DNA of 64,000 bases from Methylococcaceae bacterium (lineage in GTDB: Bacteria; Pseudomonadota; Gammaproteobacteria; Methylococcales; Methylomonadaceae): NCBI GenBank assembly GCA_030627205.1, contig DAOUSN010000001.1, positions 1 through 64,000 on the forward strand, written 5' to 3'. The notes under the pieces were generated by a model. The model did not search any database. It was given only the letters and a program-made list of their open reading frames with translations, and was not told where the DNA came from. Shown in pieces: positions 1,471-28,018 of the stretch; position 1 is the first letter of the stretch; every line of letters begins with the position of its first letter. Both the position numbers and the translations under genes were made by a program.

Positions 1471-1486
1471 ATACGGGATAGAAAAT
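1471..1486 (+). repeat. CGGGATAGAAAAT motif, left copy
   Basis: ATACGGGATAGAAAAT lies just upstream of the lipoprotein gene. The same CGGGATAGAAAAT core is at 1868-1880 and, inverted, CGGGATAGAAAA again at 1909-1920. The copy here and the inverted one bracket the NfeD-like gene. They could be terminal inverted repeats of a small insertion or a shared regulatory site. Confidence 0.6.
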
Positions 1487-1863: not shown

Positions 1864-1924
1864 TATTCGGGATAGAAAATAATTACCTTTAATTTTTTTA
1901 AAATCTTTTTTTCTATCCCGAATA
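1864..1924. repeat. 16-bp perfect inverted repeat between divergent genes
   Basis: TATTCGGGATAGAAAA (1864-1879) and TTTTCTATCCCGAATA (1909-1924) are exact reverse complements with a 29-base AT-rich loop. The element lies between the minus-strand NfeD-like gene and the plus-strand accessory operon that begins 21 bases later. It is well placed to be an operator controlling both, or the end of an inserted element. Confidence 0.8.
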
Positions 1925-1945
1925 CTATAGGTGAGGAGATAACTT

Positions 1946-3136
1946 ATGAAAATTACTTACAAACTTGCTCTATGCCTAAACGAAGTTTTCCAGAAATACC
2001 TTTCTAAATCCTTCGTAGACCACGAGTCTTTATGGTTAGAGATAATACTAATCGTTAATAGAAAAAAAACGTTACTTTATACAAATTATGATATTTCAAT
2101 GGCAGAGAGTATACAAAAGCTAATCACTAAAAATGGGACGATTACAATTTTAAAAGAAGCCTTTTTCTATACAACTGAAGTTTTAGGAAGACGACTTGCA
2201 TTAGCTAATAATTTAAAAAATCAGCCTACCAATATGCACGCATTAATAATTGCTTATTGTCAACGTAGTGAAAATAGTCGCTGGCATAATAGCTATATTG
2301 AACGAGGATTTTATGAAGAAAATAATGAGGACGATTTTTTTAAACCTTTAGCAAAAAACCTTAAACAACAATGCAAACTCTTAGCAGATCAATATTCTGA
2401 TGTTAGCTGTCGTCGTCGTAAGGAATTTGGACGGTATTGGTTTATAAACCAAGAGACCTGTTTAGAAGTTGCGGAAGAACTCAGTTTATTTGATATTTTA
2501 AAAATTATCCCATTACAATCAACAACCAATAAAGAACCCCCATTATTATTAGTTCGAGTCATTGAATCATTAAATAAAAAATATGGTTTATTACGTTCCT
2601 GTGGTTTATCACCTGATTTTTGGCTAGAAAGAAATATTTCCGTGTCTCATTTAACAGAATTAAAACAATTATGTATACAAGCTAGAAAATTAATCAATAA
2701 TGAGAATATGTCAAAATCAAATGCTTACCAACAAGCTTTTACCAAACTAATAGCAGGGACAAAAAAATGGGCAGGAGTTAGTAGTTTTAATGAGTTATTT
2801 CATAGTATTTTAGGTCAGAATATTATGAATAATCAATATAATACAGAACTAGAACACCAAGAACCTCAATTAGAAGCTGTTATTAATGAGGTCTTGCTTG
2901 AATTACCTGAAGACTATCCCGATGATTTTAACCCAGTTTTAAGATACGCTTTTATTACTTTAATTGTTAAAGAAACAAGCCTTTATTCACCTAATAACAA
3001 TGGCTTAATTAATGACCCTCACTTTTTAAAACTTATCAACCGGCATTCTGATTACGCCTCTTTATCAAAGACTACGTTAATTAGTACTTTACAACAACAA
3101 CTTTATTCTATTATCAAAAAACACATAGGACATTAA
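1946..3136 (+). CDS. Unknown protein, first gene of accessory operon (396 aa)
   Basis: I do not recognise this 396-residue protein. It has no signal peptide or membrane segment and looks soluble and largely helical, with a basic patch (CRRRKEFGRYWFI, about residues 154-166). A 'LSPDFWLERNISVSHLTELKQL' helix pair follows in the middle, and the C-terminal third is acidic then amphipathic. GAGGAG lies 9 bases before the ATG. It opens a plus-strand run in which the next gene starts 2 bases after its stop, so it is almost certainly co-expressed with the 215-aa protein and the Lon-fold protein that follow. A 16-bp palindrome immediately upstream may regulate it. No function is assigned. Confidence 0.7.
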   Translation: MKITYKLALCLNEVFQKYLSKSFVDHESLWLEIILIVNRKKTLLYTNYDISMAESIQKLITKNGTITILKEAFFYTTEVLGRRLALANNLKNQPTNMHALIIAYCQRSENSRWHNSYIERGFYEENNEDDFFKPLAKNLKQQCKLLADQYSDVSCRRRKEFGRYWFINQETCLEVAEELSLFDILKIIPLQSTTNKEPPLLLVRVIESLNKKYGLLRSCGLSPDFWLERNISVSHLTELKQLCIQARKLINNENMSKSNAYQQAFTKLIAGTKKWAGVSSFNELFHSILGQNIMNNQYNTELEHQEPQLEAVINEVLLELPEDYPDDFNPVLRYAFITLIVKETSLYSPNNNGLINDPHFLKLINRHSDYASLSKTTLISTLQQQLYSIIKKHIGH

Positions 3137-3138
3137 TA

Positions 3139-3786
3139 ATGATTAACGCCGCCGAAAAAAGCGTTTGGGAACACGCTTTATCTCGTTTCCAACTTATTGA
3201 CTGGGAAGAACCCATCACTGAATCTGAGGTTAATGATTTAAAAGAGGTTTTGCTTAAAAAAAACCCAACTGAAACGACTAAGGCGTGGTTAAAGCGAATT
3301 TTAACCTCTATTACCCAAGATGAACAAGAGACTTTAAGTCAGTGGATTCAACGGCTTTTTAAGCATTTAAAATCAAATTCTAAGTTATCCGCTCAAGAGT
3401 CCAGTGAATGTTTAACAACTTGGGTTAACAGTCTAAATATTAATTTTAATCCTGTGACGGAAATTGTTCGTCATGCTGCGGCACCCATTGAGGTAGAAAA
3501 ATATCCGCTTCCTGATAATGACATGCCGTTAATAACTGAGGATGCGTGTTTTCAATTTTTTATTAAATCCGAAGCAACGATGATTTCCATTGAGGCGCAA
3601 GCTTTGGGATTAGCCATTGAAGATTATGCAGACACCTTGATTAGTTTAAGTGATTATGAAACCCCCAATGAAATAGTAGCGGTGATTTCATTAAATGATT
3701 CTGCAAACGGCGAATGTATGGTTAAAAATAATCTTACTTTTCGTAAAATGTTAACCAACCCCAAAATAGGATGTTTAAGTGATTAG
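3139..3786 (+). CDS. Unknown soluble protein (215 aa)
   Basis: Unrecognised. The N-terminal half is helical and charged (AEKSVWEHALSRFQLIDWEE, then repeated Lys/Glu helices). The C-terminal half, from about residue 115, has a strand-rich pattern (ACFQFFIKSEATMISIEAQA and later EIVAVISLNDSANGECMV). No signal peptide is present. It begins 2 bases after the previous stop and overlaps the next gene by 8 bases, which implies translational coupling to the Lon-fold protein. A role as its partner or adaptor is plausible but is inference from gene order only. Confidence 0.7.
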   Translation: MINAAEKSVWEHALSRFQLIDWEEPITESEVNDLKEVLLKKNPTETTKAWLKRILTSITQDEQETLSQWIQRLFKHLKSNSKLSAQESSECLTTWVNSLNINFNPVTEIVRHAAAPIEVEKYPLPDNDMPLITEDACFQFFIKSEATMISIEAQALGLAIEDYADTLISLSDYETPNEIVAVISLNDSANGECMVKNNLTFRKMLTNPKIGCLSD

Positions 3787-4336
3787 ACAAGTGTTTATTC
3801 CTACGGTTGAATTAAATCAACAGAAGGAAGCTATTTTAGAACTGTATATTCAATCGCGTTGGTTTAAACCGCCTTCCTGTTTTTCAGGGTTGGAAGGCGC
3901 GGGGTTATCGACAGGCATTCATCTTGCAGAAACCGCCTTACATTATTTAAAACAACCCTCAGGTTCTGGAATAATTTATGCGGCAAATAGTCAGCTTACT
4001 TTAAGTAATGCGTATGGAACAGCGGCTGGGTTAGCTATGGCGTATTTAATGACGTTACGTCATTGTTATCATTCACATTTAATTGTGAGTGCCGCATTGG
4101 ATGTTTTTGAAAATAAACCCAGTACCTTACGATACACAGGATTTTGGCAACAAAAATTAGCGGCTATTTTAGCTTTAGAGTCTCCCATTAAAGCGATGCC
4201 ACTCATTTTAGCCAAAGAAACTCCCTTAACATCCGCTCAAATTGAGGTATTATTACGCCATAACATTCAACCCTACCTGCTCACAAATTTAGCAGAAGCG
4301 GTTGAGTTGTGTGTCCATAATAAGAAAATCAATTAA
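3779..4336 (+). CDS. Lon-protease-fold protein lacking the catalytic Ser (185 aa)
   Basis: The 185 residues appear to be a stand-alone Lon (S16) proteolytic domain. The segment YGTAAGLAMAYLM (79-91) aligns with the Lon motif D-G-P-S-A-G, and GFWQQKLAAIL (121-131) aligns with the block carrying the catalytic lysine. The C-terminal LILAKETPLTSAQIEVLL, then NIQPYLLTNLAEAVEL, resembles the closing 'iiPkeN...h.pV.nl.EaL' of Lon. Lys126 is present, 44 residues after Ala82, which occupies the serine position; Lon itself has about 43 residues between Ser and Lys. With Ala instead of Ser the protein should be inactive unless Thr81 substitutes. It may be a pseudoprotease or sensor. Coupled to both neighbours. 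Assignment by motif, not by search. Confidence 0.55.
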   Translation: MIRQVFIPTVELNQQKEAILELYIQSRWFKPPSCFSGLEGAGLSTGIHLAETALHYLKQPSGSGIIYAANSQLTLSNAYGTAAGLAMAYLMTLRHCYHSHLIVSAALDVFENKPSTLRYTGFWQQKLAAILALESPIKAMPLILAKETPLTSAQIEVLLRHNIQPYLLTNLAEAVELCVHNKKIN

Positions 4337-4347
4337 AAGGGATAAAA

Positions 4348-5124
4348 ATGAAACAGGTTGCATCTTTAAAATATGGGGTTATTTTTAAAAAAGCATTTTC
4401 CAGACCTGAAATTTTCACCGCTTTTGTGCGTGATATTTTAGGGGTGACGATAGAGATAGATCATGTGGACACTGAGAAATCATTTACCCCCGTTATTGGA
4501 CAAGTAAATGCTCAGTTTGATTTATTTGCCGAAGATAAAAAAAATCGGATTATCGTTGATATTCAGCATACGCGCCATGCTGACCATTATGATCGGTTTT
4601 TACATTATCATTGCATGGCTTTAATGGAGCAGATTAAGACGGCTAAAAACTATCGCCCTGAGATAACGGTTTATACAATTGTAGTGCTAACTTCAGGGGA
4701 TAAACATAAAAATGATGTCTCCATAATTGACTTTGATCCTAAAAATTTAAAAGGCGAGTCGGTAGGTGAAATAAAACATAAAGTGATTTATTTATGCCCT
4801 AAATATGTTAATAATGAAACCCCCGTCGCTTATAAAGAATGGTTAGAAGCGATTGATGATAGTTTAGATGAAGTGGTTGATGAGCAACATTATAAAAACA
4901 GGGCTATTCAATCTATTTTTAATATTATTGAAAAAGAGGATATTACTCCTGATGAACGCGCCATTATGTTTGATGAATATAATCAACGTGAACATGAAGA
5001 GACTTTAAAACAGGAGACAATGGACATTGTGGCTAAGAAAATGCTTATAAAAGGCATGGAAATTTCCTTAATTTCTGAAATAACAGGGTTAACAGTAGAT
5101 GAAATTAATCAGGTGAATTTATGA
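4348..5124 (+). CDS. Rpn family PD-(D/E)XK nuclease / putative transposase
   Basis: The 258-residue protein starts with LKYGVIFKKAFSRPEIFTAF and continues with VNAQFDLFAEDKKNRIIVDI followed by Q. This is the layout of the PD-(D/E)XK 'Rpn/PDDEXK_2 transposase' family: a K-x-x-F opening, a strand with Asp (FDLFAED), then 'hhhDIQ', where most members have 'hhEhQ'. The block HYDRFLHYHCMALMEQ matches the family helix 'R...Y.s.l...ql..G..Y'. The C-terminal tail (TPDERAIMFDEYNQREHEET, then MLIKGMEISLISEITGLTVD) is the usual Rpn helix-turn tail. Rpn proteins cut DNA and promote RecA-independent recombination, and several have been linked to phage defence. It lies between the two Lon-like genes and overlaps the next by ATGA. 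Confidence 0.85.
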   Translation: MKQVASLKYGVIFKKAFSRPEIFTAFVRDILGVTIEIDHVDTEKSFTPVIGQVNAQFDLFAEDKKNRIIVDIQHTRHADHYDRFLHYHCMALMEQIKTAKNYRPEITVYTIVVLTSGDKHKNDVSIIDFDPKNLKGESVGEIKHKVIYLCPKYVNNETPVAYKEWLEAIDDSLDEVVDEQHYKNRAIQSIFNIIEKEDITPDERAIMFDEYNQREHEETLKQETMDIVAKKMLIKGMEISLISEITGLTVDEINQVNL

Positions 5125-6500
5125 GTAAAATAGGGGCATTATTTCCTATTGTTGTTAGCGGAAGCAATAAAAATAATACGGTAGTCGAAGTTTTTAGTGA
5201 GCAAAAAATAAATCAAATAGACGATACAGAGGCGATTAATAAAGGACTTTCCCCTATTGTTAGTCAAATGATGCCTGCTGGAATTTATAGGCAATCGTAT
5301 CATGCTTTACAGCTTGTTAGAGCTTTTATTGTTTATCGAAAATCAAACCAAATAGAAGCGTGGATAACACAGCCTATTTTTAAGATGACAAAAATTCCTC
5401 AATGGGTGCTGTATGAATTTTTTAACCTTTATTTTAATTTATTTACCTATACCCATACGGATTTGCTCAAGAAAACACGAACAGATGTTAATGGTGTAAA
5501 AGCGAATGTGGCGGGTGATAGTTGTGAGTTAAGTGTTGCACTCTCTTTATTATTACCGTCTAATTCCAACGCTTTACCTGTAAACACCTGTGTGATTGCG
5601 ACGGGTGCATTAGGGGGTTTAAGTGGTCAAATTAATATTATTGAAGTCGGGCGTATTGCTGAAAAACTACAGCTTATTTTAACCCTGAAAAAAGAAAATA
5701 AGTTAACCAGCGATCATTATATTTTTTATACCCCTATTTATATGGATGCGACCCAAACAGAAAAAGTAATTAATCGTCCTGAAATTGAATTATTAAAACA
5801 ACTTAGTATTGAAGTGCGACCGCGTGGGGAATTAAAAGAAATTGTTGAAGAATTAAAATTATTACCCATGAGATTAGCGTATAAACGGCTTTGGTTATCA
5901 GGACTTATTTTAAGTTTAGCCACTGTGTCTTGGAACTACCAAGATTTGCCTATTAAGATAGATTTTCAAGCTATTAAAGAGGGGTTTAAAAAAGAACCTT
6001 TTTTGATTTGCAATAAATATGGGGGAGAATCAATACACTATTATCCTTTTGAAAAAGATGGCAGCTATCATATCGTGTATATGCCTGCAAAATCCATTGA
6101 TAACTGGTATGTTGATCTAGGGTGGTCAATTAAAATGCCTGAAGAAACAGGACTCAATGCGTATTATCCAAAATCATGGCAAGGTTATTATGTGACTTAT
6201 ATTAATGTTGCTGAAAAAACGGGAACTACAGTTTATCCTGATGGAAATAAAAAATTATATGAAAATGAAGTGGTTAAACGGCGGTGGCAATTAAAAGAAC
6301 CTGCTCAAGAAGAAGGCAGTTTATTTGCTATTTTAATTAATCATCATCCAGTAGATTTAATTAAATTAGAAAGTGATTTAAGTAAAATACCCGCTAAAAA
6401 TCATAGTAAATTAAGTAATTATTTAACCAAACAAGCGGATGGGGTGACATTTTTTCATTATCTGGTTAAATTACGACCTTCTCCCTGTACTTTTGATTAA
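5121..6500 (+). CDS. Membrane-anchored Lon-like Ser/Lys protease candidate (459 aa)
   Basis: Residues about 50-245 resemble a Lon proteolytic domain: KANVAGDSCELSVALSLLL (127-145) with Ser134, then TCVIATGALGG (156-166), then IIEVGRIAEKLQLIL (173-187) with Lys182. The Ser-to-Lys spacing is 48, close to Lon's 43, and the following strand YIFYTPIYMDATQTEKV fits the Lon C-terminal segment. A single hydrophobic stretch at about 257-271 (LWLSGLILSLATVSW) is a likely membrane anchor. The 190-residue C-terminal part is unrecognised. No AAA+ ATPase domain is present, so this is not classical Lon. The start overlaps the nuclease stop by 4 bases (ATGA). Proteolytic activity is an inference from the dyad. 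Confidence 0.6.
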   Translation: MSKIGALFPIVVSGSNKNNTVVEVFSEQKINQIDDTEAINKGLSPIVSQMMPAGIYRQSYHALQLVRAFIVYRKSNQIEAWITQPIFKMTKIPQWVLYEFFNLYFNLFTYTHTDLLKKTRTDVNGVKANVAGDSCELSVALSLLLPSNSNALPVNTCVIATGALGGLSGQINIIEVGRIAEKLQLILTLKKENKLTSDHYIFYTPIYMDATQTEKVINRPEIELLKQLSIEVRPRGELKEIVEELKLLPMRLAYKRLWLSGLILSLATVSWNYQDLPIKIDFQAIKEGFKKEPFLICNKYGGESIHYYPFEKDGSYHIVYMPAKSIDNWYVDLGWSIKMPEETGLNAYYPKSWQGYYVTYINVAEKTGTTVYPDGNKKLYENEVVKRRWQLKEPAQEEGSLFAILINHHPVDLIKLESDLSKIPAKNHSKLSNYLTKQADGVTFFHYLVKLRPSPCTFD

Positions 6501-6509
6501 AGTAATATT

Positions 6510-7181
6510 ATGATAAAACCTAAAATCCCCCGCTATTATTTTAGTAAAATCAAGGATCAGCAATTAAGGAAAATCGTCACTATTAAACAGAATTTTTCAA
6601 AAAATAAGTTTAATGAATGGTTTAATCAACAGGCCTCTATAAGCGAAGAGGATAGTAATTTTTTAACCGAATTGTTAACGAAAGAAATTGACTTTATTCG
6701 ATTGTATAAAGAAGAAGATTTAAAAGTAAAATTTATTGCGCCTATTTTAAATCGAGTGGATTTTAGAGATATAAACAAAGAAGTTCGAGACTTTTATGAA
6801 GAAAAAATCACCTATCAAACTGATACATTTATTTTAACTGGGGCGACTGATTTTTTAGTCTCTAAAGGGTTGGAGTATGCAGAAAAGCCTTATTTTTTTA
6901 TCCAAGAATTTAAAAAATCTAAAGAACATCATTATCCTGAAGCTCAGTTATTAGCCGAATTAATTGCAGGATTAGAATTGAATAATTTTAGGGTAATTAA
7001 AGGGGCTTATATTGTGGGTGCAATTTGGAATTTTGTTATTTTGGAAAAATTAGCCATAAATACCTACCATTACTTTATCTCCATTAATTTTGATAGTTCT
7101 AAAATAGCGGATTTAATTGAAATTTATAACCATTTACAAGTGATTAAACACGCTATTTTAGACTCTATTGCCCCTGTATAA
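6510..7181 (+). CDS. PD-(D/E)XK-like protein, paralogue of the 27383-28018 gene
   Basis: The 223-residue protein has a candidate nuclease core: TGATDFLV (Asp at about residue 115), then the strand YFFIQEFKKSKE, that is D...(Q)E-x-K. A helix PEAQLLAELIAGLEL and the strand GAYIVGAIWNFVIL follow. The same order and wording appear in the gene at 27383-28018 (TVDGMIA, CIHEYKRS, PDAQVLAAMLVAREL, GLFVVGLVWNFIIL). The shared D...E-x-K core suggests a restriction-endonuclease fold, but the family name is not known to me and activity is unproven. It follows the Lon-like gene by 9 bases and may belong to the same transcript. Confidence 0.65.
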   Translation: MIKPKIPRYYFSKIKDQQLRKIVTIKQNFSKNKFNEWFNQQASISEEDSNFLTELLTKEIDFIRLYKEEDLKVKFIAPILNRVDFRDINKEVRDFYEEKITYQTDTFILTGATDFLVSKGLEYAEKPYFFIQEFKKSKEHHYPEAQLLAELIAGLELNNFRVIKGAYIVGAIWNFVILEKLAINTYHYFISINFDSSKIADLIEIYNHLQVIKHAILDSIAPV

Positions 7182-7199: not shown

Positions 7200-7664
7200 A
7201 TGAAAAAATTAAGTTTTTTAGTCCTTATTTTATTATCAATGCCTGCATTGTCAGAAACTGAGTTATTAGTTGAAAAAAAAGGGCAACAAGTGCATTTTGT
7301 TTATCCTGATTTGGAAGCCGACAATGCTTATTATTATGCGATGTGGACAAATAAAAAAAATAATTGTGATTCTTTTTTTACACTTAATGCTCAGCCTTTA
7401 TTATTAAAAGATGCTAGGGATAACTTTTATAATCTCCCAAAGGAAAAAGGGCATTTATGTTTACGTCGTAGTGAGGAGCTATTAAGTTATGATTGGAATA
7501 AATATCAAATAACGCCAGATAATAAGTTTTTAATTAGAGAAACGAGTAATTCGCGTAGCATTGATATAGCTCCACCAGAAAATTTACCGCCTGAAACTAA
7601 TAATTTATTACCTTGTGAATTTAGTTTAAAAGGGGATAAATATATTTGTGAGTTACCATTATAA
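7200..7664 (+). CDS. Secreted Cys-containing protein A (154 aa), tandem paralogue
   Basis: A Sec signal peptide (MKKLSFLVLILLSMPALS, cleavage near residue 18) is followed by ETELLVEKKGQQVHFVYPDL, a segment repeated almost exactly in the next gene. Four cysteines (in KNNC, HLCLRR, LPCEF and YICEL) suggest disulfides in a periplasmic or extracellular protein. The strand-rich opening and 'AYYYAMW' pattern hint at a small beta-sandwich, but I do not recognise the family. Its sibling and a caspase-like lipoprotein lie just downstream on the same strand. Confidence 0.7.
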   Translation: MKKLSFLVLILLSMPALSETELLVEKKGQQVHFVYPDLEADNAYYYAMWTNKKNNCDSFFTLNAQPLLLKDARDNFYNLPKEKGHLCLRRSEELLSYDWNKYQITPDNKFLIRETSNSRSIDIAPPENLPPETNNLLPCEFSLKGDKYICELPL

Positions 7665-7691: not shown

Positions 7692-8141
7692 GTGATGCGG
7701 ATTATTATTTTATTGTTATTCGGTTTTTTTTCAACAGTAGGGATTGCAGAAACTGAGTTATTAGTTGAGAAAAAAGGGCAACAAGTTCATTTTGTTTATC
7801 CTGATTTAAAGGATGATGGTGCTTATTATTATGCGATGTGGATAGAAGGAGAAAATAATTGTAATAAATTTAATATTGATGCTTATGGGTTAATCATAAG
7901 TAACTATAATAAATTTTATATAATACCTACAAATAAAGGCATATTATGTTTAGGACGTAGCAATAAGCAATTAGATGTTGATTGGGATAGATTTCAAGTT
8001 TATCTTGATAACGAAAATTTAAAAGATATTGATGAAAATATTTTTAGAGATATGGGTGCTCCACCAGAACCATTAGAAGATGAAACTAAATATTGTAAGT
8101 TTGTTAAAAATAAACTATCAATTTGTACATTAAAGTTATAA
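7692..8141 (+). CDS. Secreted Cys-containing protein B (149 aa), tandem paralogue
   Basis: This is a paralogue of the preceding gene. After its own signal peptide (MMRIIILLLFGFFSTVGIA) it repeats ETELLVEKKGQQVHFVYPDL, then AYYYAMW, N-C, G-I-L-C-L-G-R-S and DWDRFQVY in the same order, with four conserved Cys (ENNC, ILCLG, YCKF, SICTL). The near-identical DNA around 7255-7310 and 7746-7808 shows a tandem duplication that has since diverged downstream. Function unknown. The next gene (caspase-like) starts 3 bases after its stop. Confidence 0.7.
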   Translation: MMRIIILLLFGFFSTVGIAETELLVEKKGQQVHFVYPDLKDDGAYYYAMWIEGENNCNKFNIDAYGLIISNYNKFYIIPTNKGILCLGRSNKQLDVDWDRFQVYLDNENLKDIDENIFRDMGAPPEPLEDETKYCKFVKNKLSICTLKL

Positions 8142-8144
8142 ATA

Positions 8145-9430
8145 ATGATATTTATAAGATTATTTTCTCTCTTTCTTCTTATAAATTTATTATTTGGATG
8201 TACTATACTAGAAGAAAAAGATATAATCAATATTCCTATCCCTATTCCAAAAATAGGTTATGAGAAAGAACCTTTAAAAAGAATTGCTTTAATTATAAGT
8301 AATTCTAATTATATGGATGATAATATAAATGATTTAGACAATTCGACAAATGACTCATCATCATTAGCATCTCAGTTAAAAAAGATGAATTTTATAGTTA
8401 ATTATAAAAACAATATATCTAGAAAAAGGATATTAGCTGAGATTAGAATGTTTAATAAAAATATTGATAAAAATACAGTTGCCTTATTTTTTTACGCAGG
8501 ACATTCAATACAAAATAACAATAATAATTATTTAATTCCTATTGATTTTGAAAGCAGTAAAATAATGAAAATAAATTATGAAAAAGATTTTATTAATATT
8601 AAACACGCTTTTTCTAAAAATAAAAACTTCCAATTAGCAGCCATAAAAATAATTATATTAGATTCTTGTCGAAACAACCCTTTTTTAGAAAAAAAATTTA
8701 CTCCGCTGTTATCAACAGAGATATTTATCGAGACTTATTTCATAGAGGAAAGAGTGGTTTTAGTAGTTTATCAGAAGTTAATGCACCTACTGGATCAATA
8801 TTAGCTTATTCAACAGCACCAGGATCATTAGCCAAAGATGGTATCAAGAATTCTTTGCATAGCCCTTATACAGAAGGGATTTTGAAATTTATCCATGAAA
8901 AAATTAGCATAAGTGATCTTTTCAAAAAGGTTCGTAAGTATGTATTAGAAATAACAAATGAAACTCAAAGCCCATGGGAAGTTAACTCTTTAATACATAA
9001 ATTCTCATTTAATATTAAATTTGATAGAAAAATAAATACCAATAATAATAATGATAATTACCGTTTTAAAAGTCTGGATAATGAAACTATTTTAGATAAA
9101 AAACTTAATAAAACATGGAAAATATTAAATATCAATAAAATATATCTATTTGATAAAATAAAAGAGCAAATAGAGTTATTAACAAGAAAAATATATAGAC
9201 TACCGACTAAAGAAGAATTGAGTTCTTTAGTTGCTTTTCAACGTAAGTATGATTGGGGTAAAATTGATAGTAATTTTTTTCCAAAAAATGATAAAACTTG
9301 TCGTTACTGGACTTCATCAGATACAAGTATTCTATTTGGGTTTACAAAATGGCAGGTTAATTTTTGTAAATCTATTTTAGAAAAACATTTAATTAATGAT
9401 GCCGCTGCAGTAATTCTTATTAGTAAATAA
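8145..9430 (+). pseudogene. Caspase-like (peptidase C14) lipoprotein with DUF1566 C-terminus, frameshifted
   Basis: Two overlapping frames together make one protein. The first (8145-8804) has a lipobox LLFGC (Cys19), the caspase entry 'ALIISNSNY', the catalytic His120 in FFYAGHS and Cys175 in ILDSCRNNPF. After residue about 184 the homology continues in another frame, read up to 9430: GKSGFSSLSEVNAPTGSILA, then YSTAPGSLA, SPYTEGIL and TQSPWEV, all typical of bacterial metacaspase-type C14 domains. The change of frame fits a missing A in the A8 run at 8689-8696; A9 would restore 'LEKKIYSAV'. The C-terminus (YRLPTKEELSSL, FFPKND, YWTSSDTS, KWQVNFC) is a DUF1566/Lcl-type domain. It may be a true pseudogene, a sequence error, or rescued by slippage. 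Confidence 0.75.
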
Positions 9431-27382: not shown

Positions 27383-28018
27383 TTATAAATGTAATTCAGT
27401 TTCTATGATGTGTTTTAGGGTTTTTAATAATTTAAAAATAGCAAAGACATCCTTGTTATTTGCATTATAATTTTGACTAATACAATATTTATTACCTTTT
27501 AAAATAATAAAATTCCATACTAAACCAACAACAAACAAGCCATAAATAGGATGTTTTTTTTGATTGAGTTCTCTTGCCACTAGCATTGCTGCTAAGACTT
27601 GTGCATCAGGTGAACCTTGATTCTCAACGCTGCGTTTATATTCGTGAATACAAAACATGGGAATATCAGGTTCACGAAAACCTGTTGCAATCATACCATC
27701 AACAGTTCCAGATAATTGATAATCACCAATGACTGCAGATAAATTACGTTCTAAAAAATAACCCATTTTTTCATCATCAATATCAGCCTGCATTATTAGT
27801 GGACTGATAAATTTATTTTCTAACTCGGTTTCATTCCAAGCTCTGCCGCCTCTAATAAGAGATTTTTGTAGGTGTTCAATAATTTGTTTATCAATTTTTG
27901 TTATTTTTGCTTCTGCTTGTTGCCAGTTATCCATTAAATCAGCCTGCCAAACTTCTTGTAATCCAAAGGTTTTATCCAAAATTGTCAAAGTACAGCTTTT
28001 AAATGACATTTGCTTCAT
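27383..28018 (-). CDS. PD-(D/E)XK-like protein, paralogue of the 6510-7181 gene
   Basis: The 211-residue protein shares an ordered core with the gene in the accessory run: a Trp/Asn start (ETELENKFISPLIMQADID), then TVDGMIATG, the strand FCIHEYKRSVE, PDAQVLAAMLVARELN and LFVVGLVWNFIILKG. The conserved D...E-x-K set suggests a restriction-endonuclease-like fold; catalysis is untested. It sits 17 bases downstream of guaA on the same strand and may be read through from it. The two paralogues lie about 20 kb apart, on opposite strands. Confidence 0.65.
   Translation of the reverse strand: MKQMSFKSCTLTILDKTFGLQEVWQADLMDNWQQAEAKITKIDKQIIEHLQKSLIRGGRAWNETELENKFISPLIMQADIDDEKMGYFLERNLSAVIGDYQLSGTVDGMIATGFREPDIPMFCIHEYKRSVENQGSPDAQVLAAMLVARELNQKKHPIYGLFVVGLVWNFIILKGNKYCISQNYNANNKDVFAIFKLLKTLKHIIETELHL

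Follow-up and report, generated by a model that had tools for sequence, protein, structure and literature searches.

A 64,000-nucleotide stretch of DNA from a Methylococcaceae bacterium (hereafter the window, with coordinates counted from its first letter) carries a compact plus-strand gene cluster whose core consists of p1, p2, p3, p5, and the gene for a small secreted protein, p7. The original prediction had described five open reading frames (ORFs), p1 to p5. All five appear in the ORF list of the window at the given positions and lengths, with gaps of 2 and 11 bases and overlaps of 8 and 4 bases between them, and both overlaps are also present in a sister species (genome G201, locus L020). 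The predicted end of the cassette at position 6500 was not borne out, since the secreted-protein gene at 7200-7664 belongs to it and p6 is inserted between. The genes are as follows.

1946-3136, plus strand: p1, 396 amino acids (aa), ATG start; no recognised family; marker gene of the system
3139-3786, plus strand: p2, 215 aa, ATG start; no recognised family; follows p1 in nearly all complete loci
3779-4336, plus strand: p3, 185 aa, GTG start; Lon-like, without the catalytic Ser; putative pseudoprotease
4348-5124, plus strand: p4, 258 aa, ATG start; Rpn-type PD-(D/E)XK nuclease; accessory, not core
5121-6500, plus strand: p5, 459 aa, ATG start; N-terminal Lon-family Ser-Lys domain, residues ~1-245
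6510-7181, plus strand: p6, 223 aa, PD-(D/E)XK-like; inserted accessory gene
7200-7664, plus strand: p7, 154 aa, small secreted protein; relatives downstream of p5 in most loci
7692-8141, plus strand: p8, tandem paralogue of p7

Compared with the sister species, the ratios of nonsynonymous to synonymous substitution rates (dN/dS) were 0.29 for p1, 0.22 for p2, 0.18 for p3, 0.12 for p4, 0.23 for p5, and 0.54 for p7; these figures are rough, with dS near 1. The values of 0.12-0.29 indicate that p1-p5 are not chance ORFs.

p1, p2, p3, and p5 fall into no family of Pfam, NCBIfam, or PADLOC, and p4 is the only one of the five with a Pfam family. For p1 and p2, which had been described as being of unknown family, PHROGs likewise gave no reliable match. 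Weak Pfam, PDB, PADLOC, and PHROGs matches of p1, p2, and p7 to DUF1835 (0.0025), designed beta-trefoils (0.003), GajB (0.011), PDC-M05A (0.018), and an HNH phrog (0.008) were discarded because they were single-member or composition-like. By inspection, p2 has a helical N-terminal part and a likely beta-rich C-terminal part. The p7-type secreted proteins have a core in common and keep a Cys close to the C-terminus, and their genes lie just 3' of p5 in most loci. Larger forms of p1 carrying a second copy of a C-terminal module of ~65 residues were seen in loci L026, L027, L028, and L029 (weak in the last two).

Lon-family domains of p5 and p3

Lon domains are best known as the proteolytic half of AAA+ machines. 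In the PDB, the p5 profiles matched archaeal Lon protease domains best, with E=0.0039 for whole proteins and 2.2e-4 for the domain alone, and the GDSA and VxxVxxK motifs of p5 align on the catalytic Ser and Lys of archaeal Lon (1z0e, 1xhk). In profile-profile comparisons with Lon proteins of the same order, p5 matched both LonB-like (79%, E=1.6e-5) and canonical Lon proteins (60%, E=8.9e-5). RadA was rejected as the nearest Lon-fold relative, as p5 gave no profile-profile match to it. A search of 212 other genomes with the Lon-domain profile returned a single match, in G384, which was set aside as an ordinary LonB-like AAA+ protease.

The catalytic dyad, Ser134 and Lys182, is kept in all 14 p5 proteins of the residue table. 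When two stray fusions are included, both residues are invariant in all 16 Lon domains, and these divergent domains share only five invariant columns, two of which are the catalytic Ser and Lys. Domain-library scans found no AAA+ module on the p5 chain. Judged from these profiles and residues, p5 is likely an AAA+-less Lon-family protein and a putative active protease.

p3 aligns over its full length with the Lon domain of p5 (98%, E from 1e-13 to 1e-16, profile-profile). Its dyad is intact in 2 of 11 relatives and lost in the other 9; the p3 of the window has a Gly at the Ser column, and neither Ser nor Lys is kept throughout the p3 proteins. With its dyad intact, p5 is likely an active protease, whereas p3, in which the dyad has mostly disappeared, is likely a pseudoprotease. 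Two Lon-fold proteins had been proposed at this locus, and the profiles and catalytic residues bear out Lon-family membership for both; they appear to be one active and one dead protein rather than two proteases.

A clear hydrophobic segment directly follows the Lon domain in 10 of the 14 p5 members. In the p5 of the window, a putative membrane helix at residues ~252-271 precedes the C-terminal domain. Relatives carry further modules on the same chain. In L024 (genome G051) and L107 (G096), FHA domains, a membrane segment, and a trypsin domain come after the Lon domain, and genes for a PP2C phosphatase and a Ser/Thr kinase stand beside these forms. One protein of L025 (6161-9517) combines a Lon domain, an nSTAND1 NTPase, which occurs in this p5 relative only, a membrane segment, and a substrate-binding-like domain. 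In L106, a membrane segment leads from the Lon domain to a substrate-binding-like domain. Modules of cytosolic type (FHA, nSTAND1) thus precede the membrane segment and modules of export type (trypsin, substrate-binding) follow it, and for this reason the Lon domain of p5 is apparently cytosolic, with a membrane anchor and a periplasmic C-terminal domain.

The arrangement in L107 (1936-7696) and L024 (2015-6534) has the look of an operon encoding the Lon-FHA-membrane-trypsin protein, the PP2C phosphatase, and a Ser/Thr kinase with Sel1 repeats, as in a Lon-headed phospho-signalling system. In L028, secreted OmpA-type and caspase-FGE genes follow the core.

Co-inheritance, mobility and accessory nucleases

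Relatives of p1 occur in 14 of 311 genomes of the order Methylococcales. Samples of 369 genomes from the class and 249 from the phylum, which overlap, contained no p1 relative except the host itself, and phage records, plasmids, and viral contigs yielded no relatives either. A narrower pattern scan for p1 matched only Methylococcales records. On contigs of sufficient length, p1 has relatives of p2, p3, and p5 beside it in the fixed order p1-p2-(p3)-p5. Strong p3 matches (E<1e-50) were found in 11 genomes, all of them among the 14 with p1, and lie adjacent to p1. The proposal of an undescribed cassette whose genes are inherited together is supported by this distribution. No description of the system turned up in searches of the literature outside subscription papers for Lon domains with these partners.

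The locus L050 of G675, a third genome of the same genus, consists of p1-p2-p3-p5 and a secreted gene, without p4. In sequence, the G675 proteins belong with their counterparts from two other genera (52-57% identity; support of 100/99 in the p1 tree) rather than with those of the window and G201 (~32%), although all three genomes belong to one genus. The flanks also differ between sister species: in the host, glmU, valS, guaA, argG, and other housekeeping genes were recognised by eye, whereas sugar-transferase, epimerase, and ribosomal-protein genes flank the locus in G201. The grouping of G675 and the different neighbours in the host and G201 indicate that the system moves. The cassette is real, mobile, and found so far only in methanotrophs of one order. 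No defence island was seen around it here, the surroundings in the window being housekeeping genes by eye.

p4 matches PF12784 at 35.3 bits (cut-off 27.4, E=1.3e-8) and scores below the cut-off of NCBIfam TIGR01784. The original prediction had placed this nuclease at the heart of the system. It occurs in the cassette only in the window and in G201, being absent from every relative beyond these two sister species, and belongs to a multi-copy family, with 10 PF12784 Rpn-type genes in the host genome and 16 in G201; a cassette defined by the nuclease was therefore rejected. p6 matches PADLOC PD_DExK (E=3e-9) and is missing between p5 and p7 in G201 (L020). The patchy presence of p4 and p6 indicates that nucleases were added to the operon and do not define it.

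Within p4, an in-frame ATG at 5020, preceded by AGGAG, might start an internally translated C-terminal antitoxin (RpnS), but the sister species has no start codon at the same place; an in-frame ATG common to both lies further upstream. Elsewhere, about eight similar Rpn-type nuclease genes stand in tandem at ~1 kb spacing up to a contig end (G163:C2:2962322-2969825). A minus-strand gene of the window (27383-28018), adjoining guaA, resembles the PD-(D/E)XK protein p6 by eye and may belong to a multi-copy family.

Inverted-repeat element upstream of p1

The palindrome reported just before the first gene is real, with exact 16-nt arms that begin 82 nt (TATTCGGGATAGAAAA) and 37 nt (TTTTCTATCCCGAATA) ahead of p1, and it extends to 23-nt arms at 91%. 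Its core motif, CGGGATAGAAAA, has four copies in the window at no more than one mismatch, against 0.34 expected. The features on this side of p1 are as follows.

1909-1926, plus strand: right arm of the inverted repeat, TTTTCTATCCCGAATACT, 20-37 nt upstream of p1
1864-1879, minus strand: left arm of the inverted repeat, preceding the divergent 75-aa ORF; same place in the sister species (L020 2741-2752)
1603-1830, minus strand: divergent 75-aa ORF, NfeD/OB-like by eye, 63% identical in G201; possible co-regulated partner
1474-1485, minus strand: third motif copy, ~40 nt upstream of a divergent lipoprotein-like gene (ATG ~1433)

The sister species has a diverged copy of the right arm, TTTCCTATCCCGAATAC, at the same place, and a motif copy upstream of a small lipoprotein ORF (L020 2231-2242). 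An element TTTTCTATCCCG[A/T]ATA stands ahead of p1, the 75-aa ORF, and the lipoprotein-like gene, ~20-50 nt from their starts in the window and at corresponding places in G201. It was not found in the more distant loci. The exact CGGGATAGAAAA occurs elsewhere once in each of two genomes, the host and G201; a genome-wide regulon was rejected because these single extra copies lie beside unrelated genes. The inverted repeat looks like a dedicated promoter or operator.

Comparison with known systems and possible functions

CalpL, with CalpT and CalpS, forms a Lon protease cascade of type III CRISPR immunity in which a sensor and a Lon domain work without AAA+ (PMC11417357). The predicted resemblance to CalpL holds in logic only. 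Like CalpL, p5 combines an AAA+-less Lon domain and a sensor-like domain on one chain, with candidate partner genes alongside, and likely acts by regulated limited proteolysis. Unlike CalpL, none of 11 p5 members has a SAVED match, no CalpL chain is among the PDB matches of the p5 profiles, and p1 and p2 match no ECF sigma or anti-sigma family in library scans, which remote relatives could escape without structures. The sensor side of p5 is, moreover, apparently periplasmic behind a membrane segment, and the pseudo-Lon subunit p3 is extra. With no SAVED domain and no recognisable sigma/anti-sigma partner, the cassette is not a member of the CalpL systems. CalpL remains a precedent for a Lon domain as a signal-gated switch in immunity.

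As in the Lon proteases of MEROPS S16, including archaeal 1z0e and 1xhk, the GDSA (Ser) and VxxVxxK (Lys) motifs align in p5. Unlike classical Lon, p5 lacks AAA+ and carries its protease domain at the N-terminus, ahead of a putative membrane segment and a further domain. In YlbL and SepM, the PDZ-Lon proteins of Firmicutes, the Lon domain is extracellular and accompanied by a PDZ domain. p5 resembles these membrane-anchored proteins (see also PMC6051672, PMC11197336) in having a Lon-type domain with an apparent membrane anchor and no AAA+, but its Lon domain is predicted to be cytosolic and no PDZ domain was detected. Like the Rpn toxin-antitoxin proteins, p4 is a PF12784 PD-(D/E)XK protein with a C-terminal helical tail; unlike in those systems (PMC10327210), it is accessory here and one of 10 in the genome. 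The adjoining protease and nuclease genes recall nuclease-protease pairs and caspase-nuclease (canu) systems, but the nucleases there are of metallo-beta-lactamase type (PMC12799240), whereas p4 is a PD-(D/E)XK protein found in two species only.

We read the locus as a membrane-spanning, signal-regulated Lon protease switch and give this reading a probability of about 0.5. It draws on features of the sequence itself, namely the gene set, co-inheritance, Lon membership, the dyad pattern, the operator-like element, purifying selection, and mobility. The topology, the proteolysis, what is sensed, p1-p2 as targets, and p3 as regulator are the parts that we infer. In such a switch, p5 would cross the inner membrane, its Ser-Lys protease domain facing the cytoplasm and its C-terminal domain the periplasm, and the secreted p7 would be a likely partner or ligand on the periplasmic side. 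p3 may be a regulatory partner of the protease domain. A periplasmic stimulus, such as envelope damage, phage adsorption, or another external cue, would switch on p5, which would then act on the cytosolic p1-p2 pair and release or destroy a regulator or effector. The inverted-repeat element would control the operon and its divergent neighbours, and the Rpn nuclease and the second PD-(D/E)XK gene could be optional payloads in this lineage.

Several observations weigh against this reading. The Pfam Lon models match no p5 member, p5 lying below Pfam Lon_C detection, and Lon-fold domains need not be proteases, as RadA illustrates. AlphaFold2 models built on 4-sequence alignments had a predicted local distance difference test (pLDDT) score of 39 for p5 and 51 for p1 and are not interpretable; the low-confidence p1 model gave no Foldseek match at E < 1. 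The presumed membrane segment falls below the hydrophobicity threshold in 4 of the 14 p5 members, including that of the window. p3 is absent from two loci, L029 and L052, and in G051 the Lon-FHA-trypsin gene lies ~5 kb from p3, past an RHS-type gene.

More tentatively, and with the balance tilted against it, the locus could represent bacterial transmembrane signalling of a kind not recognised before. In it, a cytosolic proteolytic switch of AAA+-free Lon and pseudo-Lon, driven by exchangeable sensors (substrate-binding-like, FHA-trypsin, nSTAND1), would take an envelope-level immune or cell-fate decision in methanotrophs. If true, a Lon domain linked across the membrane to interchangeable sensors, beside a largely inactive Lon partner, would make Lon switches a broader signalling principle. 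p1, p2, and p7 would in any case provide three testable orphan families in methanotrophs.

A narrower version of the protease-switch reading is regulation by envelope stress or surface sensing with no immune role, in which p5 proteolysis would alter expression and p1 or p2 would act at the inverted repeat. The presumed periplasmic domain and the secreted p7 would fit, as would the conserved element common to the divergent lipoprotein and 75-aa genes and the housekeeping neighbours. Such a very patchy, mobile distribution is nevertheless unusual for a basic stress circuit, and library scans recognised no DNA-binding domain in p1 or p2, which leaves this version possible but rather doubtful.

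We consider it unlikely that the locus is a phage-defence or conflict system of the kind first predicted, in which p1/p2 or p5 would sense infection and the Lon-type protease would activate or release the Rpn nuclease, leading to growth arrest or death. The nuclease is missing from all but two loci, PADLOC returned nothing credible for p1-p5 or the Lon domains, the surroundings are those of housekeeping genes, and no relative turned up among phages, plasmids, or viral contigs. Defence would nonetheless suit the patchy, horizontally exchanged distribution seen in the grouping of G675, the differing genomic neighbours of the sister species, the nSTAND1, FHA-trypsin-kinase, and caspase genes that occur within or beside relatives, and the nuclease genes added in the window locus. 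Protection against phage is among the things that Rpn proteins can provide (PMC10327210), and immunity has examples of nucleases activated by proteases (PMC12799240).

Less probable still are Lon-like domains that act as non-catalytic scaffolds, as in RadA, building a ring or filament for p1/p2, with Ser and Lys kept for folding. The domain of p3 is under selection despite the loss of its dyad, and no AAA+ unfoldase is attached, as a scaffold would allow. The dyad argues otherwise, as Ser and Lys make up two of so few invariant columns in the p5-type domains while neither is constant in p3. As for unrelated ORFs lined up by chance, or an island in decay, the frameshifted caspase gene nearby might hint at decay, but a gene order kept over many genera and dN/dS well below 1 already refute this reading through conservation, and its probability is negligible.

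That caspase-like lipoprotein gene, downstream of the core at 8145-9430, consists of two overlapping frames split at a run of eight A (~8689-8696), and its relatives elsewhere are single ORFs. It may be a pseudogene, a slippage site, or an assembly error. Ahead of the locus, a 173-nt direct repeat (529-701 and 763-935) is 90% identical between its copies.

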